33,209 bases of DNA. Origin: Rhodospirillaceae bacterium (GTDB lineage Bacteria > Pseudomonadota > Alphaproteobacteria > Rhodospirillales > Rhodospirillaceae). The stretch's first letter is position 1; every line of letters starts with the position of its first letter. Positions 9,579 to 17,272 of this stretch are shown in pieces. Location of the stretch: contig SHVO01000019.1 of assembly GCA_009694245.1 (NCBI GenBank), forward strand, positions 1 through 33,209, read 5' to 3'. Below the pieces are notes generated by a model. That model was not told where the DNA came from. It made no database searches and saw only the letters and a program-made list of their open reading frames with translations. The position numbers and the translations under genes are program-made.

Positions 9579-10829
9579 TTAGATTTGCGCCAAAATATCG
9601 GCGGCTGATTTCGGTTTGCGGACGGCGCGCGCTCCGCCCTTTTGAATCTCAAGCGCCAGCTGCAGCCACTCGGCGGCTTTGCCGGTATCACCACGCTCGC
9701 GCCTTTCGATGTCGGCCAATAGTTGCGCGGCGCGCGCCCGAACGTCCGGCGAAGCGTCGGCGCCGGTCAATCCCACCAATCGGTTGCGCGCCTGACTCCA
9801 TGACTCGATGCTAAGCGCCGCTGACGCCACCGCCAGGCGGCTTTCGGGATGATCGGGCGCCGCCTTCGCCAGTCCATCGATCCGGCGCGCCCATTCCTGC
9901 GCCGACTCGCCGTCGACCAAGCTCCGGTAAGCGGCGAGAAGTTCATGGCTTGGCTCCGATGCCCAAGCGCGTTCCACGGCGCTGGCGGCCTTGCGGCCCT
10001 TACCCTGGGCCGTCATCGCCTTGGCGAAGGCCGCGACGGCGGCGCCATTGGTTTCGTCACCGTCCATCGCCTTCTTCGCCAGGTTGGCGGCGGACGGCGC
10101 ATCGCCAAGGCCGAGCGCGGCATTGGCTTGCTTCGTCAGCAACCGTGATTTCAGGCGTTTCAACTCGGTCGGTGTGTAGGCCTCGCGCGCCAGCTTGCCG
10201 TCGAGGGTCGCGAGTGCCTCTGTCCAGCGTTCCCCCGCGATCTCCAAATCGAGCACCAGCAGCAACGCCCAGGGCGGCGCGTCCTTGCGCTCCAGCGCAC
10301 GCCGGCCATGACCAAGGGCAGTGGCGGCGTCGCCGTCGGTAACAGCCCCTTCAGCCAGTGCGCGCAGGCCTGCAAGTTCGGTTTCCGGCCGTGACAAAAG
10401 GGCAAGCGCCACCTCCTGCATCTCCCGCACATCGCCGGCGAGCGCCGCCGCATCTTTGCGCAGCACAAGCACGGCCGGATTGTCGCTTAAAAGCCTGGCG
10501 GCTTCCCGCGCGAGCTTTTGCGCGGCCGGGCCTTGTCCAGCCTGCACGGCGGCAAAACCATCGCCCAGACTGAAAAGTCCCCGCTTGAAACGCCGTTCGC
10601 GACGCGCGGCGCCAAAGGCCTGGACAGTTCCGCTGATGAGCGAGAACAGGCGCATCACCAGAAGTATGGCGATCACCAAAGCAACCATTGTGATCACGAG
10701 AATGCCGACGGACGTGTTAACCTGCCAGCCGCGCCAGGTCAGGCTCACGGTGCCCGGGTCGTCGGCGAGCCACACCGAGGCAGCCACCAGAGCCGCGACG
10801 CCCAAGACATAGATAATGAGACGCGGCAT
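9579..10829 (-). CDS. hemY: HemY-type membrane TPR protein
   Basis: The 416-residue protein has two N-terminal membrane segments (about residues 3-22 and 42-66, MPRLIIYVLGVAALVAASVW and GILVITMVALVIAILLV) and a HemY_N-like region (AARRERRFKRGLFSLGDGFA). A long alanine-rich helical TPR array follows, up to about residue 385. The gene lies 4 bp downstream of mic60 in the hemD-mic60-hemY order seen across Alphaproteobacteria. The enterobacterial-type HemY protein is linked genetically to late heme synthesis but has no established enzymatic activity, and it is unrelated to the Bacillus protoporphyrinogen oxidase of the same name. Confidence 0.88.
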   Translation of the reverse strand: MPRLIIYVLGVAALVAASVWLADDPGTVSLTWRGWQVNTSVGILVITMVALVIAILLVMRLFSLISGTVQAFGAARRERRFKRGLFSLGDGFAAVQAGQGPAAQKLAREAARLLSDNPAVLVLRKDAAALAGDVREMQEVALALLSRPETELAGLRALAEGAVTDGDAATALGHGRRALERKDAPPWALLLVLDLEIAGERWTEALATLDGKLAREAYTPTELKRLKSRLLTKQANAALGLGDAPSAANLAKKAMDGDETNGAAVAAFAKAMTAQGKGRKAASAVERAWASEPSHELLAAYRSLVDGESAQEWARRIDGLAKAAPDHPESRLAVASAALSIESWSQARNRLVGLTGADASPDVRARAAQLLADIERRERGDTGKAAEWLQLALEIQKGGARAVRKPKSAADILAQI

Positions 10830-10833
10830 GCCT

Positions 10834-12321
10834 TCAGCGACCGCTGGTCAAGGGCTTGGGCAGGTCGACGCTGCTGCCCGTTGCCGCCACGGCCTTGGTG
10901 GTTGCGTCTGCCGCCGCCTTTTCGGCCGCGACACGGGCTTTGGCGTAGGCAAGCCAAGGCGCTGCTACCTTGGCCACGTCCACGGCCAAGCCATTCATTT
11001 CCGCGACCGCCGCCGCCAGATCACCTTCGGTCAGGCGCCGCTCCGCGCGCGCGAGCACAGCCGAAATGCTGGAGCCGGCAGCCTCGCCGTCGAGGCGGCG
11101 CACTGTGACGATTGAAAAGACGCGGTCGAGAATTCGCCGGTACCAGGCGCCTGCTCCATCCGGAATGACGCCCGCCCGCATGATCGCTGCCGCCGCCGGC
11201 TCGAAGCGCCGCTCCAGTTCCTGCAAAGTCGGAATTCCGCGCGCCGCGAATATGGCGAAGCCGCCGTCGTCAATCGATTGTCCGCCGGCGCGCACCGCCA
11301 ACATCTTGGCTGTCTCCAGTTCAACCGTGAAAGGCCGACCCGCGAGCACCGCCTCGCGCCACTGCGCCACGGCCATGAGCAGCGCGATGTTGCCGCTTTG
11401 CTCTACGAGGGTTTTGCGTCCGGTGGTCTCGAGCACGGTCACCCGGTCCGAAAGCGCGAGCACGCTGTTGGCTTCGGCGCTGCGGCCTTCGAGCATGTTC
11501 AAGCGCTTGCTCAAATCTTCGAGCCGCGCTGAATTTCCAATGGCGGCCTCCAGGGTCGCTAGTCGCGCGCTGACGGCGGTCAGCTGCTCGGCCTGACTCG
11601 CCAGACTGTCGCCCAAGGAAGCCACGGCTTCGCCGCCCCCGCTTCCGCCGGCGCGCGACTCCACTGCCGCAAGACGTTGTGCCAGGGCTTGCGTCGTGGC
11701 GTTCAGTCCGTCGGGCGATGCCGGGTTTCCAGGGCCTCGCTCCAACGCGGCCACCCGCGCCTTCAGGGCCGCGATTTCGGATTGAAGGGCGACGACCGGA
11801 TCGACCGGCACCGAAACGGATTCCACAACCGAAGGGGCACCCCGGACGAATTGCTTTATGCGCGGCACCCACAGGGATGCGGTGCCGACCACGGCCGCGG
11901 CTAAGATCGCCAAGAATACGAAAAGCGCCACGGCCCGGCCCAGGCCGCCGCTCTCCCTGCCGCCAAGAACTTCGGCCGCCGTGGTTGCATCGATCCGCTC
12001 CGATGGCTCCCCTTCCGGCGCCGGGACTTCGCTATGCCCTAGGTACTTGAAGCGTTGATCCTTGGCGCGCAGGTCCGCCGCGTCCTCAGCCAAAAGACGC
12101 GCCGCGTGCCCTCCGCCGCGGGGGGCAGTCCTGGGTTCGCCTGCCGCCGGCGCACCGGAGTCTGCCGACGCTAGCTTCTCCGCCGCATTTTCTAATTCGG
12201 CCGCCGGCATTTTTGCTGGCATGAGCTCTGACACGGGCCGTCTTTCCTTGGCTAGCGGCCTGCCGATTCCGGGATCAGGCTCGGACTCGGGTTCGACCGC
12301 AGGCGCAGCGCGCGCCGTCAT
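10834..12321 (-). CDS. mic60: bacterial Mic60/mitofilin (COG4223)
   Basis: From ATG 12321 the 495-residue product has a Pro/Ala/Glu-rich N-terminal region and one transmembrane segment (RAVALFVFLAILAAAVVGTA, 11870-11945). A periplasmic coiled coil follows (LQSEIAALKARVAALERG and onward). The C-terminal mitofilin-like helices come near ERRFEPAAAAIMRAGVIPDG and WYRRILDRVFSIVTVRRLDG. Mic60 shapes inner-membrane invaginations and is the ancestor of the mitochondrial MICOS core. The frame remains open back to 12645, but codons before about 12470 read as shadow sequence. The real coding signal there is in the HemD frame, 1 nt out of phase. ATG 12321 overlaps the HemD frame by 47 bases and has a poor ribosome binding site. 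A frameshift-joined fusion with HemD is possible. Confidence 0.82.
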   Translation of the reverse strand: MTARAAPAVEPESEPDPGIGRPLAKERRPVSELMPAKMPAAELENAAEKLASADSGAPAAGEPRTAPRGGGHAARLLAEDAADLRAKDQRFKYLGHSEVPAPEGEPSERIDATTAAEVLGGRESGGLGRAVALFVFLAILAAAVVGTASLWVPRIKQFVRGAPSVVESVSVPVDPVVALQSEIAALKARVAALERGPGNPASPDGLNATTQALAQRLAAVESRAGGSGGGEAVASLGDSLASQAEQLTAVSARLATLEAAIGNSARLEDLSKRLNMLEGRSAEANSVLALSDRVTVLETTGRKTLVEQSGNIALLMAVAQWREAVLAGRPFTVELETAKMLAVRAGGQSIDDGGFAIFAARGIPTLQELERRFEPAAAAIMRAGVIPDGAGAWYRRILDRVFSIVTVRRLDGEAAGSSISAVLARAERRLTEGDLAAAVAEMNGLAVDVAKVAAPWLAYAKARVAAEKAAADATTKAVAATGSSVDLPKPLTSGR

Positions 12322-14479
12322 TGTAACCGATGGATTGATCTCCGCTACGGCGATGGTCGCGGCGGATGTTTCCTGGGGCGGCTTTGGGGCCGTCGGCGAA
12401 AGCAGCTTTCGCTCTAGGGGCCCTGGCTCGGGCGTTTGGGGTCCCTGCACCGGCGCGTTGCCGACGTGCCCCTCCCCGCATTTGCCAGACCGCCGCGCGC
12501 AGATCTTCGCTTGGCGCAGCGGCAAGGCGTCGCTCCAGCCAGACCTTAAGCCGCCCACTCCAGCCCTTGAGGACCTGCCCGCGATCCGGCTCGTCGCTCG
12601 GCTCCTTGTCATGCGCGAGACCCTGTTCCTCGGCCTTTTCCACATCCGACAACTTCGCGGTGTCGAGGGCGATGTGCTGGCGTTCAGCCTTCTCGTCGGC
12701 CAGGCGCTCGCGCTCCAACCGGTCGCGCTCGGCCCGCTTCTGAGCCCGGGCTTCGCGTTCGACTATTTTGGCGACCGCCTTCTCCAGGGCGATGCGATCG
12801 CGCTCGTTGCGCTCATGAGCCAAGCGTTCTTGTTCGACTCGATCCACCTCGGCGCGCGCCTGGGCCAAGCGTTCGCGTTCCAGCCGATCGCGGTCCGCCC
12901 GCTCCCGGCTCAGCCGTTCTCGCTCGGCCTCCTCTATTGCCGCCCTCCCTTCGACAAAACGGCGGCTCTCGGCATGTTCCTGGGCGAAGCGCGCTTGTTC
13001 GAGCTGGGCCAACATCGCTTGCTCTTGAGCGGCGCGCTTGCGTTCGAGCCCCGCGGCCTCCGACTTTTCCCGGGCGATGCGTTCGTGCTCGGCGCGTTCC
13101 TCGAATAAGCGCTCTTGCTCCAGCCGATCCAATTCAGCCCGCTCCTGAGCCACACGGTCTCGTCCGATCCTTTCGGTCTCCGCGATGTCGCGGGCGATAC
13201 GCCCGCGCTCGGCCTTTTCGACGGCCAAGCGTTCGCCTTCCAGGCGGTCGTACTCCGCGCGCTCGAGGACAATCCGCTCTTGTTCCGTTTTCGCCAGCGC
13301 GATTTTTTCTTGAGCCAAGCGACTCCGTTCAGCGCGTTCCTCGGTTTGGCGTTCGCGCTCGATTGCCTCACGTTCGGCCTTCTCTGCCCGCGCCACCTCG
13401 GCCGCTCGCGTACGCAGTAGCTTCTCTCGGGTGGCTTTCTCGCCGGCAATCCGCAAGCGCTCGGCTTTTTCGCGCGCCGATCTCTCGCGTTCAAGTTCTT
13501 CACGCTCCGCCTTCTCACCTGCAGCCTTCTCCCTTCGGGCGCTTTTTTCGGCGGCGCGGGCCAGTTCAGCCAGGTGTCGTGCCTTAGCTTCCTTCTCAGC
13601 CGCGGCGCGGGCGACCGCTGCCGCTGCGCGCAGCCCCTCGGTTTCTTGGCTTTCCAACCGATCCCGTTCGACGTGCTCAAGCTCAAAGCGCTCGTGTTCG
13701 GCGCGTTGACGCTCGGCCTCTTCGCCCGCGCTCGCTTCACGGGCGGCGCGCTCTTCCTCGACCCGGTCCACGAGCTTGACGTCCAGAACGCCGAACACCG
13801 TGTCGAGGTCCGCTCCAGCCGGTACGCTGACGCCACCCAATTTCAAGGCCCGTAGCGGTGCGGCGACGACCGGTGTCGCCGCGACCGTGGCAAGCGACGA
13901 GACCAGCGGTTCCATTCCCGCCTTTTGGATCAGGGCAACAAAAGCGCGGGCTTCGTCGGCGGTTAAGAAAAGCGCCGCATCGACCGCGCGATTGCGCAAT
14001 GCCGCCTCCAGCTCTGCGGGAATCGTGGCGACGCGTTTAAGCGTGTAGAGCGGCATGGGCCGCACGGCGAAACCCATATTGCTGAGCATCGTCGGCAGGT
14101 TGATCGGCGCGGCGGTACTGCACGCATATATAAGCGCACCATTCGCGGGCGTGAGGCTGCGCTCGACCAGCCGCGCGAGGTCCGCGGAATCGTCCTTGGC
14201 GGTCGCGATTTCCGTAAAACCAAGGCGTCGGAGTTCAGCGGTTGTCACCGCGCTATCGGTGAATACCGGGAAGGTCCGCACGCCGACATGATCCGCCAAG
14301 GCCCGCGCGCCCTCGGCACTGGTCACCAAAAATCCTTGCGCTCCGGCAAGATTAATTTTCGGCGGCGGCGTGCGCTCGGCGGTGACCAAAGGAACCGAAA
14401 GGCCTTGGTGGCCGCGAGCCTTCAGAGCGGCAACCGAGCTGCCGGCATCCTCCGCCAACTGTGTAATCAGGACCCGCAT
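12275..14479 (-). CDS. hemD: uroporphyrinogen-III synthase HemD with long coiled-coil extension
   Basis: The frame from ATG 14479 (MRVLITQLAEDA) encodes 734 residues. Residues 1-240 match HemD: FLVTSAEGARALADH, ALIYACSTAAPINLP, MPLYTLKRV and ALFLTADEARAF. HemD closes hydroxymethylbilane to uroporphyrinogen III and is normally about 250 residues. Residues 240 to about 640 are an unbroken Glu/Arg/Ala-rich helical region with repeats of the form xDRLExERLAxERAE. A short amphipathic piece follows (LKGWSGRLKVWLERRLAAAP). From about 12470 to the stop at 12275 the frame reads as Arg-rich shadow of the mic60 frame, so the genuine HemD coding signal ends near 12470. hemC is not adjacent, and the gene is divergent from tsaD. 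An upstream extension to 14569 is unlikely. Confidence 0.82.
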   Translation of the reverse strand: MRVLITQLAEDAGSSVAALKARGHQGLSVPLVTAERTPPPKINLAGAQGFLVTSAEGARALADHVGVRTFPVFTDSAVTTAELRRLGFTEIATAKDDSADLARLVERSLTPANGALIYACSTAAPINLPTMLSNMGFAVRPMPLYTLKRVATIPAELEAALRNRAVDAALFLTADEARAFVALIQKAGMEPLVSSLATVAATPVVAAPLRALKLGGVSVPAGADLDTVFGVLDVKLVDRVEEERAAREASAGEEAERQRAEHERFELEHVERDRLESQETEGLRAAAAVARAAAEKEAKARHLAELARAAEKSARREKAAGEKAEREELERERSAREKAERLRIAGEKATREKLLRTRAAEVARAEKAEREAIERERQTEERAERSRLAQEKIALAKTEQERIVLERAEYDRLEGERLAVEKAERGRIARDIAETERIGRDRVAQERAELDRLEQERLFEERAEHERIAREKSEAAGLERKRAAQEQAMLAQLEQARFAQEHAESRRFVEGRAAIEEAERERLSRERADRDRLERERLAQARAEVDRVEQERLAHERNERDRIALEKAVAKIVEREARAQKRAERDRLERERLADEKAERQHIALDTAKLSDVEKAEEQGLAHDKEPSDEPDRGQVLKGWSGRLKVWLERRLAAAPSEDLRAAVWQMRGGARRQRAGAGTPNARARAPRAKAAFADGPKAAPGNIRRDHRRSGDQSIGYNDGARCACGRTRVRA
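12686..13252 (-). repeat. degenerate 45-bp (15-residue) repeats in the HemD coiled coil
   Basis: Within this stretch of hemD the translated sequence returns at a 15-residue spacing: YDRLEGERLAVEKAE, LDRLEQERLFEERAE, RDRLERERLAQARAE, VDRVEQERLAHERNE, RDRLERERLADEKAE. The DNA shows matching 45-bp similarity. It is an internal protein repeat rather than a mobile element. Confidence 0.7.
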
Positions 14480-14592
14480 GGCTGTTACCGAGGGCCTTTC
14501 CCTAGCGCCTACCGCCCAAGTGTTGTAGAGGCTGATACCTAACGTGAAAAGCCGGTTTGCGGACCACAAACTGCGCCGATTGAAGGCCCTCT

Positions 14593-15648
14593 ATGATCGT
14601 TCTGGGCATAGAAACCAGTTGTGATGAGACTGCCGCCGCCGTGGTGGAAGGCGATGGCCGTGTACTGTCCCACGCTGTCCTTAGCCAAATCGCCGAGCAC
14701 CGGCCCTACGGCGGCATCGTTCCGGAAATCGCGGCGCGCGCTCATCTTGCCAACCTCGACCGCCTGGTCGTCCGGGCCATGGCTGATGCCGGCATCGGAT
14801 TTCCCGAACTCGACGGCGTCGCCGCCACTGCCGGCCCCGGGCTGATCGGTGGTGTCATTGTCGGACTTATGACGGCCAAGGCGATCGCCGCCGTTCATAA
14901 GATTCCACTTATGGCCGTCAATCACCTGGAAGGTCACGCGCTGACGGCGCGACTCACGGACAAGGTTGCGTTTCCCTATCTCTTGCTGCTGATCTCCGGC
15001 GGGCACTGCCAAATTCTGGCCGCCGAAGGCGTAGGACGTTATCGCCGCCTCGGCACAACGCTCGATGATGCTGCTGGCGAGGCGTTCGACAAAGCCGCGA
15101 AAATGTTGGGCCTGGGTTATCCCGGCGGTCCAGCGATCGCGCGCGCGGCCGAGTCCGGCGATCCCGGGCGCTTTGCCTTTCCCCGGCCGCTCAAGGGACG
15201 GCCCGGCTGCGACTTCTCATTTTCCGGCCTGAAGACCGCCGTCCGCCTGGCCGCGGAGTCGCTTCCCCCCGGCGCGTTCGCGGAAAAAGACATTGCCGAT
15301 CTCGCGGCCTCCTTCCAGGCGGCGATGGTTGACTCGATTGCCGATCGGGTGGCGCGCGCCGCCGAGATTTTTTGTCGTGATTACCCCGACGGCGAGGCGC
15401 TGGTGGTCGCGGGCGGCGTCGCCGCCAATGCCGCGCTCCGTGCGCGTCTCGTCACGACCGCGGCGAATTCCCACTTGTCGTTCATCGCGCCGCCGCCGGC
15501 GCTGTGTACGGACAACGCGATCATGATCGCCTGGGCCGGTATTGAACGGATGAAGCTCGGTCTTTCCGACTCACTCGACTTCAAGGCGCGCCCGCGCTGG
15601 CCGCTCGATCCCACCGCGCCCAACGCCGCCGGCGCGCGCGCGAGGTAA
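14593..15648 (+). CDS. tsaD: tRNA N6-adenosine threonylcarbamoyltransferase TsaD
   Basis: The 351-residue catalytic subunit of t6A37 synthesis begins [19 protein letters not shown]. It contains the metal-binding [11 protein letters not shown] motif (two His) and the [19 protein letters not shown] and [20 protein letters not shown] blocks. [12 protein letters not shown] comes near the C terminus, and [15 protein letters not shown] carries the third metal ligand. It transfers the threonylcarbamoyl group from TC-AMP to A37 together with TsaB (encoded here) and TsaE (not in the window). GAAGG lies 7 bases upstream of the ATG. It is divergent from hemD over 113 bp. In many relatives hemC occupies the neighbouring divergent position. 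Confidence 0.97.
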
Positions 15649-16261: not shown

Positions 16262-17272
16262 TTAGACTCTGTAGTAGTCGCGAAACCATGCGACGGTTTT
16301 TGCCAGGCCTTCGTCGAGGGAAATCTTGGGCTGATAGCCGATGGCGCGGTGCAGGGCGCTGACGTCACACCAGGTGCCTTCCACATCCCCCGGCTGCATC
16401 GGCATGAAATGCCGCACGGCTTTCTTGCCGACGTGCTTCTCGAGCGCAGCGATGAAATCCATCAGGTCAACGGGCGCGCCGCGTCCGATGTTGAAGATAC
16501 GAAACGGCGCTACGCCGCTCGCATCCGGCGCCGGCTTCTCCGGATCCCATGATTCGTCGGCCACGGGCACATGATCAATGATGCGCACCACACCCTCAAC
16601 GATGTCGTCGATGAAGGTAAAGTCGCGCATCATCCTGCCATCGTTATAAACCTCGATCGGGTCGCCGGCGATTATCCGCGCGGTGAATTTCTGCGGTGTC
16701 ATGTCGGGTCGCCCCCACGGTCCATAGACCGTGAAGAACCGCAAGCCCGTCACCGGAAATTTAAAAACATGCGCATAGGAATGCGCCAAGAGTTCATTGG
16801 ACCGCTTGCTCGCCGCATAGAGGCTCAAGGGATGCGCCGCGCCGTGGTGTTCGGCGAAGGGCATGGCTTTGTTGGCGCCGTAGACCGAGCTTGTCGAAGC
16901 AAATACAAGATGCGCGACCCGCAATGTCCGCGCCGCTTCCAGCACATTCATAAAGCCGGTGAGGTTGGAATCGACATAGGCCTGGGGATTGTCGATGCCG
17001 TAGCGCACGCCCGGCTGGGCAGCCAGATGCACGATACGCGTCGGCGCGATCCGCTCGCACAGCGCGAGGAGCCCGTCCTTGGTTGCCAGATCCAGGCGGT
17101 GTCCGGTAAAGCCTTTTCGACCGTCAAGCCGCGCCCAGCGCGCCTCCTTCAACTTCACGTCATAATAAGGTGTGAAGCTGTCGATGCCGTGCACAGCCTG
17201 TCCGTCGTCCAGGAGACGCGCGGCGACATGGGCGCCGACAAACCCCGCTGCTCCGGTCAGAAGAATCGTCAT
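16262..17272 (-). CDS. UDP-glucuronate 4-epimerase-like NAD-dependent epimerase
   Basis: The 336-residue extended short-chain dehydrogenase has the N-terminal NAD-binding motif TGAAGFVGAHVAARL. HLAAQPGVRYGIDNPQAYVD is characteristic of UDP-glucuronate/UDP-GlcNAc 4-epimerases such as LspL, WbpP-like or Cap5I. STSSVYG and YAASKRSNE supply the catalytic Ser, Tyr and Lys. The reaction would interconvert UDP-glucuronate and UDP-galacturonate for capsule, exopolysaccharide or LPS. The substrate is inferred from these motifs. The gene stands alone on the minus strand, divergent from gpsA over 136 bp, with a palindrome-rich region after its stop. manC, also a nucleotide-sugar gene, lies about 1.3 kb away. 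Confidence 0.88.
   Translation of the reverse strand: MTILLTGAAGFVGAHVAARLLDDGQAVHGIDSFTPYYDVKLKEARWARLDGRKGFTGHRLDLATKDGLLALCERIAPTRIVHLAAQPGVRYGIDNPQAYVDSNLTGFMNVLEAARTLRVAHLVFASTSSVYGANKAMPFAEHHGAAHPLSLYAASKRSNELLAHSYAHVFKFPVTGLRFFTVYGPWGRPDMTPQKFTARIIAGDPIEVYNDGRMMRDFTFIDDIVEGVVRIIDHVPVADESWDPEKPAPDASGVAPFRIFNIGRGAPVDLMDFIAALEKHVGKKAVRHFMPMQPGDVEGTWCDVSALHRAIGYQPKISLDEGLAKTVAWFRDYYRV

Follow-up and report, generated by a model that had tools for sequence, protein, structure and literature searches.

Of the machinery that organises cristae, Mic60 (mitofilin) is the part that came to mitochondria from alphaproteobacteria; its gene lies in a heme cluster. As far as the consulted part of the cluster description goes (PMC7641849), the neighbour in alphaproteobacteria is a diverged HemX homologue that is also homologous to mitofilin, the genes are ordered hemD-mic60-hemY, head to head with a tsaD that is followed by gpsA, and HemD and IMMP/mitofilin are named as separate genes. 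Here, we analysed this region in a stretch of 33,209 nucleotides from a Rhodospirillaceae bacterium (contig SHVO01000019.1 of assembly GCA_009694245.1, hereafter the window), in which a HemD domain of the HEM4 family, the fold of uroporphyrinogen-III synthase (U3S), lies upstream of Mic60. Sequence comparisons indicate that the HemD-Mic60 fusion is real and widespread, and that the break which splits it in the window is private to this assembly. We consider it fairly probable that the window carries one hemD-coil-mic60 gene with a private one-base break, that the fused HEM4 of its clade was kept as a non-catalytic module and that a second HEM4, linked to hemB, took over.

The metagenome assembly that contains the window as its contig 51 (G000) totals 1.64 Mb and has a completeness rating of 76.5%. 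We compared it with 18 relatives of the same genus (19 genomes once G000 is included), 18 other genomes of the family, 24 genomes from other families of the order and a class-wide sample of 192 genomes. The closest relative is G010, whose HemD is 92% identical to that of the window. Five named relatives are environmental assemblies with unreliable labels: one bears the Rhodospirillales name Caenispirillum bisanense, two are labelled Candidatus Marinimicrobia, one uncultured bacterium and one Rhodospirillaceae.

HemD and Mic60 occupy two frames of the minus strand, which swap at GGGGAGGGG (12469-12477). The G+C content at second codon positions of the HemD frame stays at 38-54% as far as 12530 and rises to 66-80% in blocks from 12529 on; this frame is coding-like to about 12480 and the Mic60 frame is coding-like beyond. 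The first-pass annotation had noted a frame swap at a G-rich site, which is confirmed by the codon-position map, the open reading frames (ORFs) and the alignment with G010. In this alignment the window has one extra base in the GGGGAGGGG run, placed at 12473, and G010 crosses the homologous site in a single frame. The block ending in AVWQM, in the HemD frame, and the block VGNAPVQ...GGHAARLLAEDAADLR, in the Mic60 frame, follow one another without a frame change in G010 and the aligned intact relatives. The remaining insertions and deletions (indels) between the window and G010 in the listed genes are compensated nearby, multiples of three or located in the coil, and a few are intergenic. G010 has a break of its own, made up of two shifts where its coil carries a 487-base insertion, and G012 is broken inside HemD, at a different sequence. 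The insertion of G010, with its two frame changes, might be a tandem duplication or a misassembly of repeats.

Within the genus, a single frame of 1,180-1,457 codons encodes HemD, coil and Mic60 in 13 of the 18 relatives. The five exceptions are G011, G014 and G018, cut at contig ends with a HemD frame open to the edge, and the broken G010 and G012; none of the 18 has a complete locus with separate hemD and mic60. The coils of G011, G014 and G018 run to the contig edges. That a one-base break hides a single HemD/coil/Mic60 protein of roughly 1,200 residues had been one of three earlier proposals, and it is borne out by the one-frame relatives; checking relatives for separate, full-length hemD and mic60 also gives an outcome that favours fusion in the genus. 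Among the 18 other genomes of the family, 12 have the fusion, two have it split over contigs, three have separate genes and in one it was not found. Fusion is found in six of the 24 genomes from other families of the order. In the class sample, a mitofilin match occurs in 94 genomes and shares its frame with HEM4 in at least 24 of them, a call based on HEM4 and mitofilin matches with equal contig, strand and frame length. Three of these 24 score below the mitofilin cut-off, and 24 of 94 is a lower bound, as our own profile detects Mic60 in further long HEM4 ORFs (e.g. in G163, G148 and G238). A quick tree of 52 Mic60 rows requires six changes between the fused and the separate state, hence fusion was gained or lost several times. 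In some class-level ORFs HEM4 starts near residue 300-340. We considered a triple HemC-HemD-Mic60 fusion for these and rejected it, since Pfam finds no HemC in the two that were tested; their upstream part is probably an open GC-rich frame.

Since the closest relative lacks the extra base and other relatives read the gene in one frame, the fusion is real and the break in the window is an assembly error or a strain mutation. Were the break a true strain mutation, cells would make a HemD-coil protein but hardly any Mic60, or none. Slippage in G runs is a common mutation, and no other lone frame-breaking indel separates the listed genes from those of G010 outside the coil. Yet the Mic60 frame has no stop codon past the site (ORF 10834-12645), the ratio of nonsynonymous to synonymous substitution rates (dN/dS) is near 0.2 in the Mic60 C-terminus, and a metagenome assembly of this completeness can carry consensus errors, so that we find a strain mutation conceivable and rather doubtful. 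A programmed +1 frameshift, yielding both a HemD-coil protein and the full fusion, would agree with a swap at a G-rich run between two coding-like frames and with a net shift of the same phase between the HemD and Mic60 frames of G010. But G010 reads through the site and has its two shifts in the coil, with the insertion, 13 of the 18 relatives have no shift at all, and G012 breaks within HemD at another sequence. Because the breaks of three genomes of the genus fall at unlike places, and the site is not common to relatives, we rejected programmed slippage as extremely improbable. Hardly better placed is the third earlier proposal, two overlapping genes with mic60 starting at 12321. Separate genes do exist in three of the 18 other family genomes, but in the genus no complete locus has them. 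The relatives have one frame at this position, the Mic60-frame sequence upstream of it is conserved between the window and G010, and the methionine is I or L in six of the relatives aligned. We thus rejected this start, and regard separate genes as very improbable.

The HemD part was examined in an alignment of 75 HEM4 domains. Its canonical set comprises 27 HemD (16 from the order and 11 from the family), and 62 columns are conserved in at least 85% of these. The degenerate clade comprises 23 fused copies, 18 from the genus (window included) and those of G019, G020, G022, G024 and G026. In the window, the canonical V-G, D, R and T are replaced by D75-S76, N127, D175 and E176. The copies of the clade keep a median of 36 of the 62 columns (range 34-41), against 60 (53-61) in the canonical set. 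At five key columns, the V is kept in 0/23, the G in 2/23, the D of AGDL in 0/23, the R of SPRT in 0/23 and the T in 0/23, and in canonical HemD the V and the G are each present in 27/27. The V-G pair is also found in all five solved U3S chains aligned by the canonical profile, two of which are near-identical human-type U3S. It is kept in 15 of 17 HEM4 ORFs that have Mic60 in the same ORF; these 17 belong to 19 long HEM4 ORFs picked from the class sample, and in three of them Mic60 scores less than 20 bits. Three class-level HEM4 ORFs lack a normal V-G (L145 in G149, L146 in G220 and L136 in G211) and might represent independent losses; Mic60 lies in the same ORF in G220 and weakly so in G211.

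The degenerate group forms one side of a branch of the Mic60 tree (25 rows; SH-like approximate likelihood-ratio test, SH-aLRT, 94; G012 and G035 labelled by similarity), which suggests a single origin. On the HEM4 tree it is placed amid the family's canonical HemD, on a long stem (0.97, support 100). The two trees were built quickly, and the second carries a warning of long branches at the other two HEM4 groups. The fold seems to have been kept. A search with a model predicted from six sequences (low confidence, pLDDT 58, used for the fold search alone) gave 12 PDB matches at E≤0.001, all 12 of them U3S, with template-modelling scores of 0.34-0.44. A PDB sequence search with the window's HemD alone returned no U3S match. 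The window scores 71.3 bits with the U3S equivalog model NF006621, for a cut-off of 223, and a canonical relative also falls below (130.4 bits). The domain is a HemD by Pfam and, from a low-confidence model, by fold; it lacks the V-G pair, for which the catalytic need is putative.

Despite the loss of these residues, the fused domain is not decaying. Relative to G010, dN/dS is 0.16-0.17 for the fused HemD, 0.14-0.21 for HemY and 0.20 for the Mic60 C-terminus. When 16 same-genus genomes are compared in all 120 pairs, the fused HemD averages 65.7% identity, the Mic60 C-terminus 55.7% and the standalone HEM4 described below 49.9%; the fused domain is better conserved than its standalone counterpart in 120/120 pairs. 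Such values indicate that the fused HEM4 domain is under purifying selection.

The Pfam model PF02602 detects a further, standalone HEM4 in 17 of the 18 same-genus relatives and in G019, G020 and G022, and our own profile adds one in G026 and a partial one in G035. It precedes hemB in 20/20 loci. These genomes have a single hemB match each, except G002, where it is split over two contigs. The genes of G019 and G022 run hemA-like, hemC, HEM4, hemB, cysG-like. The standalone HEM4 keeps the V in 19/20, the G in 19/20, the D in 19/20, the R in 17/20 and the conserved Y in 20/20. Judging from these sequences, it is probably the current U3S of the clade. Each of the 11 family genomes whose HemD is canonical carries just one HEM4; in the order, G039 has a second match below the cut-off and G051 has two. 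The window's own assembly contains a HEM4 of another group (L107, G000:C54, 93-920), whose best NCBIfam match is PRK05928.2-1 (139 bits, below the cut-off). This group occurs in 5/19 genomes of the genus. We considered it as the missing synthase and rejected it: it is distant on the HEM4 tree, and its loci have none of the heme or cys genes that were searched for.

We propose that the intact protein would span the inner membrane once: its N-terminal HEM4 would lie in the cytoplasm, followed by an E/R/A-rich coil a few hundred residues long, a conserved juxtamembrane block and the membrane helix, and its Mic60/mitofilin part would be periplasmic. In the clade that holds the genus and its neighbours, the separate, hemB-adjacent HEM4 would have taken over the U3S role. 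The fused head, its enzyme role lost, as we infer, when such a hemB-linked HEM4 was available, would be kept under selection to serve Mic60 in the cytoplasm as a docking or assembly module, with the coil holding it off the membrane. More specifically, the fusion might be ancient, the ring-closing step of heme synthesis might have passed to the hemB-linked HEM4, and the stranded HemD might have become a non-catalytic cytosolic recruiting or sensing head of Mic60, perhaps still binding tetrapyrroles, a proposal for which we see an even chance. The earlier suggestion that the fusion ties a heme-synthesis enzyme to Mic60 is borne out in part: it agrees with other alphaproteobacteria, where the fused HemD looks canonical, but in this clade near-invariant residues are lost and the hemB-linked HEM4 probably does the chemistry.

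A number of observations weigh against a non-catalytic head. U3S enzymes tolerate wide sequence change, so activity is possible; the weak predicted model keeps the U3S fold; the conserved Tyr is kept in 21/23 fused copies of the clade; and D, R and T, canonical in the order, are absent from the solved chains, which leaves V-G as the only one of the five key columns common to the distant solved enzymes. Slow change alone shows no new role, since canonical HemD is likewise more conserved than its Mic60 (47.8% against 33.1%, in 351/351 pairs). The standalone HEM4 evolves fast and keeps a median of 23.5 of the 62 columns against 36 in the fused domain, a low count due to the choice of columns on the canonical lineage. 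Genes that we take to be cysI- and cysH-like accompany it in 12/17 loci of the genus, so it might serve siroheme alone. In the class sample, a second HEM4 is also present in the fused genomes G139 and G237; having two HEM4 genes is therefore in itself no proof of replacement. Finally, neither PF02602 nor our profile finds a standalone HEM4 of the hemB-linked kind in G000, G018 or G024. There is no hemB match in G000 and G024 and only a partial hemB in G018, and the hemB/HEM4 region may simply be absent from these assemblies. Yet G024 is rated 99% complete and is still without a hemB match. Its sole HEM4 is the degenerate fused one, which might reflect a gap or a lineage without a heme pathway of its own.

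Many of these points are shared by the main rival, in which both HEM4 are active, the fused HemD being a membrane-tethered U3S for heme and the hemB-linked HEM4 a siroheme isozyme. The retained Tyr, the U3S match of the weak model and purifying selection all agree with it, as do the cys-like neighbours of the second HEM4. It is also favoured by fused HemD elsewhere, which mostly keep V-G, and by canonical fused HemD being the sole HEM4 above the cut-off in family and order genomes. But the V-G, D, R and T columns are lost in all or nearly all members of the clade, and the second HEM4 adjoins the sole hemB, in G019 and G022 within a run of heme genes. We regard joint activity as unlikely and continue to prefer a fused HEM4 retained for a non-catalytic role.

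Between head and membrane, the longest charged stretch (by a rule of our own) has 288-688 residues in the 13 intact genus members and 236 in G026. Its periodicity shows no clean heptad: the window copy lacks a peak, and of five relatives tested two peak near 3.65. If helical, the coil would span tens of nanometres. It is flanked by short blocks, a W..R and W.M motif after the coil and then GGRAARLLAEDAADLRAKDQRFKYLGHSE ahead of the membrane. The Mic60 part has both expected features, a predicted membrane helix (hydropathy 2.62 in the window, 1.56-3.15 among the other ORFs listed in the hydropathy scan) and a C-terminal mitofilin domain (56.8 bits for a cut-off of 27.4). The coordinates are given in Table 1.

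Table 1. Features of the hemD-coil-mic60 locus and adjacent genes in the window.
Feature	Position	Strand	Basis or remark
HemD-frame ORF	12275-14569	-	764 codons; ATG at 14479 fits the conserved N-terminus of relatives
HEM4 (U3S fold) domain, residues 1-236	13772-14479	-	Pfam HEM4, residues 16-226, 67 bits, cut-off 27.5
E/R/A-rich helical coil, about 400 residues (E 0.23, R 0.18, A 0.19)	12566-13759	-	Translation, composition
Coil end and short block GW..RLKVWL.RR...AVWQM, HemD frame	12479-12565	-	Linker alignment; similar in relatives
GGGGAGGGG, frame-break site	12469-12477	-	One base more than the homologous G010 stretch
Proline-rich linker, Mic60 frame (HVGNAPVQGPQTPEP...PSVTM...)	12118-12468	-	Linker alignment
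Strongly conserved block ahead of the membrane helix, GGHAARLLAEDAADLRAKDQRFKYLGHSE	12028-12117	-	Linker alignment
Predicted membrane helix AVALFVFLAILAAAVVGTA	11878-11934	-	Mean hydropathy 2.62 over 19 residues
Mic60 coiled coil and mitofilin C-terminal domain	10837-11877	-	Pfam Mitofilin 56.8 bits; Pfam core 10912-11247
Mic60-frame ORF	10834-12645	-	Pfam Mitofilin 56.8 bits, cut-off 27.4
HemY-type tetratricopeptide-repeat protein, next gene of the cluster	9579-10829	-	Pfam HemY_N 63.6 bits; TIGR00540 93.8 bits, below cut-off 142
tsaD-like gene, head to head with the fusion gene	14593-15648	+	ORF of 351 amino acids

We take the head-to-head gene to be tsaD from its sequence, and this fits the arrangement in the cluster description. 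The gene at 16262-17272 presumably encodes an NAD-dependent epimerase, which it resembles; this name and the gpsA-like label of the gene beyond it were likewise assumed from sequence. It lies between the tsaD-like and gpsA-like genes, where the consulted part of the cluster description has tsaD and then gpsA (PMC7641849).

The physical fusion of HemD to Mic60 in many alphaproteobacteria hints that both work in one place. A clade whose HemD is seemingly non-catalytic yet conserved offers a test of the structural value of HemD to Mic60 apart from heme synthesis. It is also a warning for annotation, for the label hemD may here sit on a gene other than that of the U3S. A literature search gave no account of the fusion or of a degenerate HemD on Mic60, although the main Mic60 papers were outside this search and may describe the fusion; HemD is not mentioned in the consulted portions of the main text of PMC12136173, PMC12631773 and PMC9764997. 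The fusion as such is probably not new, because a curated model covers a similar one. What would be new is its HemD end, the fused domain of this clade having lost near-invariant residues and yet being conserved.

That curated model, the HemD/HemX fusion (NF005411, PRK06975), likewise describes an N-terminal HemD joined to a membrane protein, of the HemX type. It appeared as a weak match of a canonical HemD; the window's two halves, scanned separately (E up to 1), and its HEM4 domain (0.001) did not match it. The window differs from this model in having a partner that Pfam assigns to Mitofilin, an intervening coil of hundreds of residues and a degenerate HemD part. With canonical HemD (PF02602) the window shares the HEM4 domain, and the PDB fold matches obtained with its weak model are U3S, whereas V-G and other columns near-invariant in 27 related HemD are gone. 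With alphaproteobacterial Mic60/mitofilin (PF09731) it shares the membrane helix, the C-terminal mitofilin domain and the gene order, the latter as given in the consulted part of PMC7641849. To this plan the protein of the window adds an N-terminal HEM4 and a long E/R/A coil, on what would be the cytoplasmic side of the membrane.

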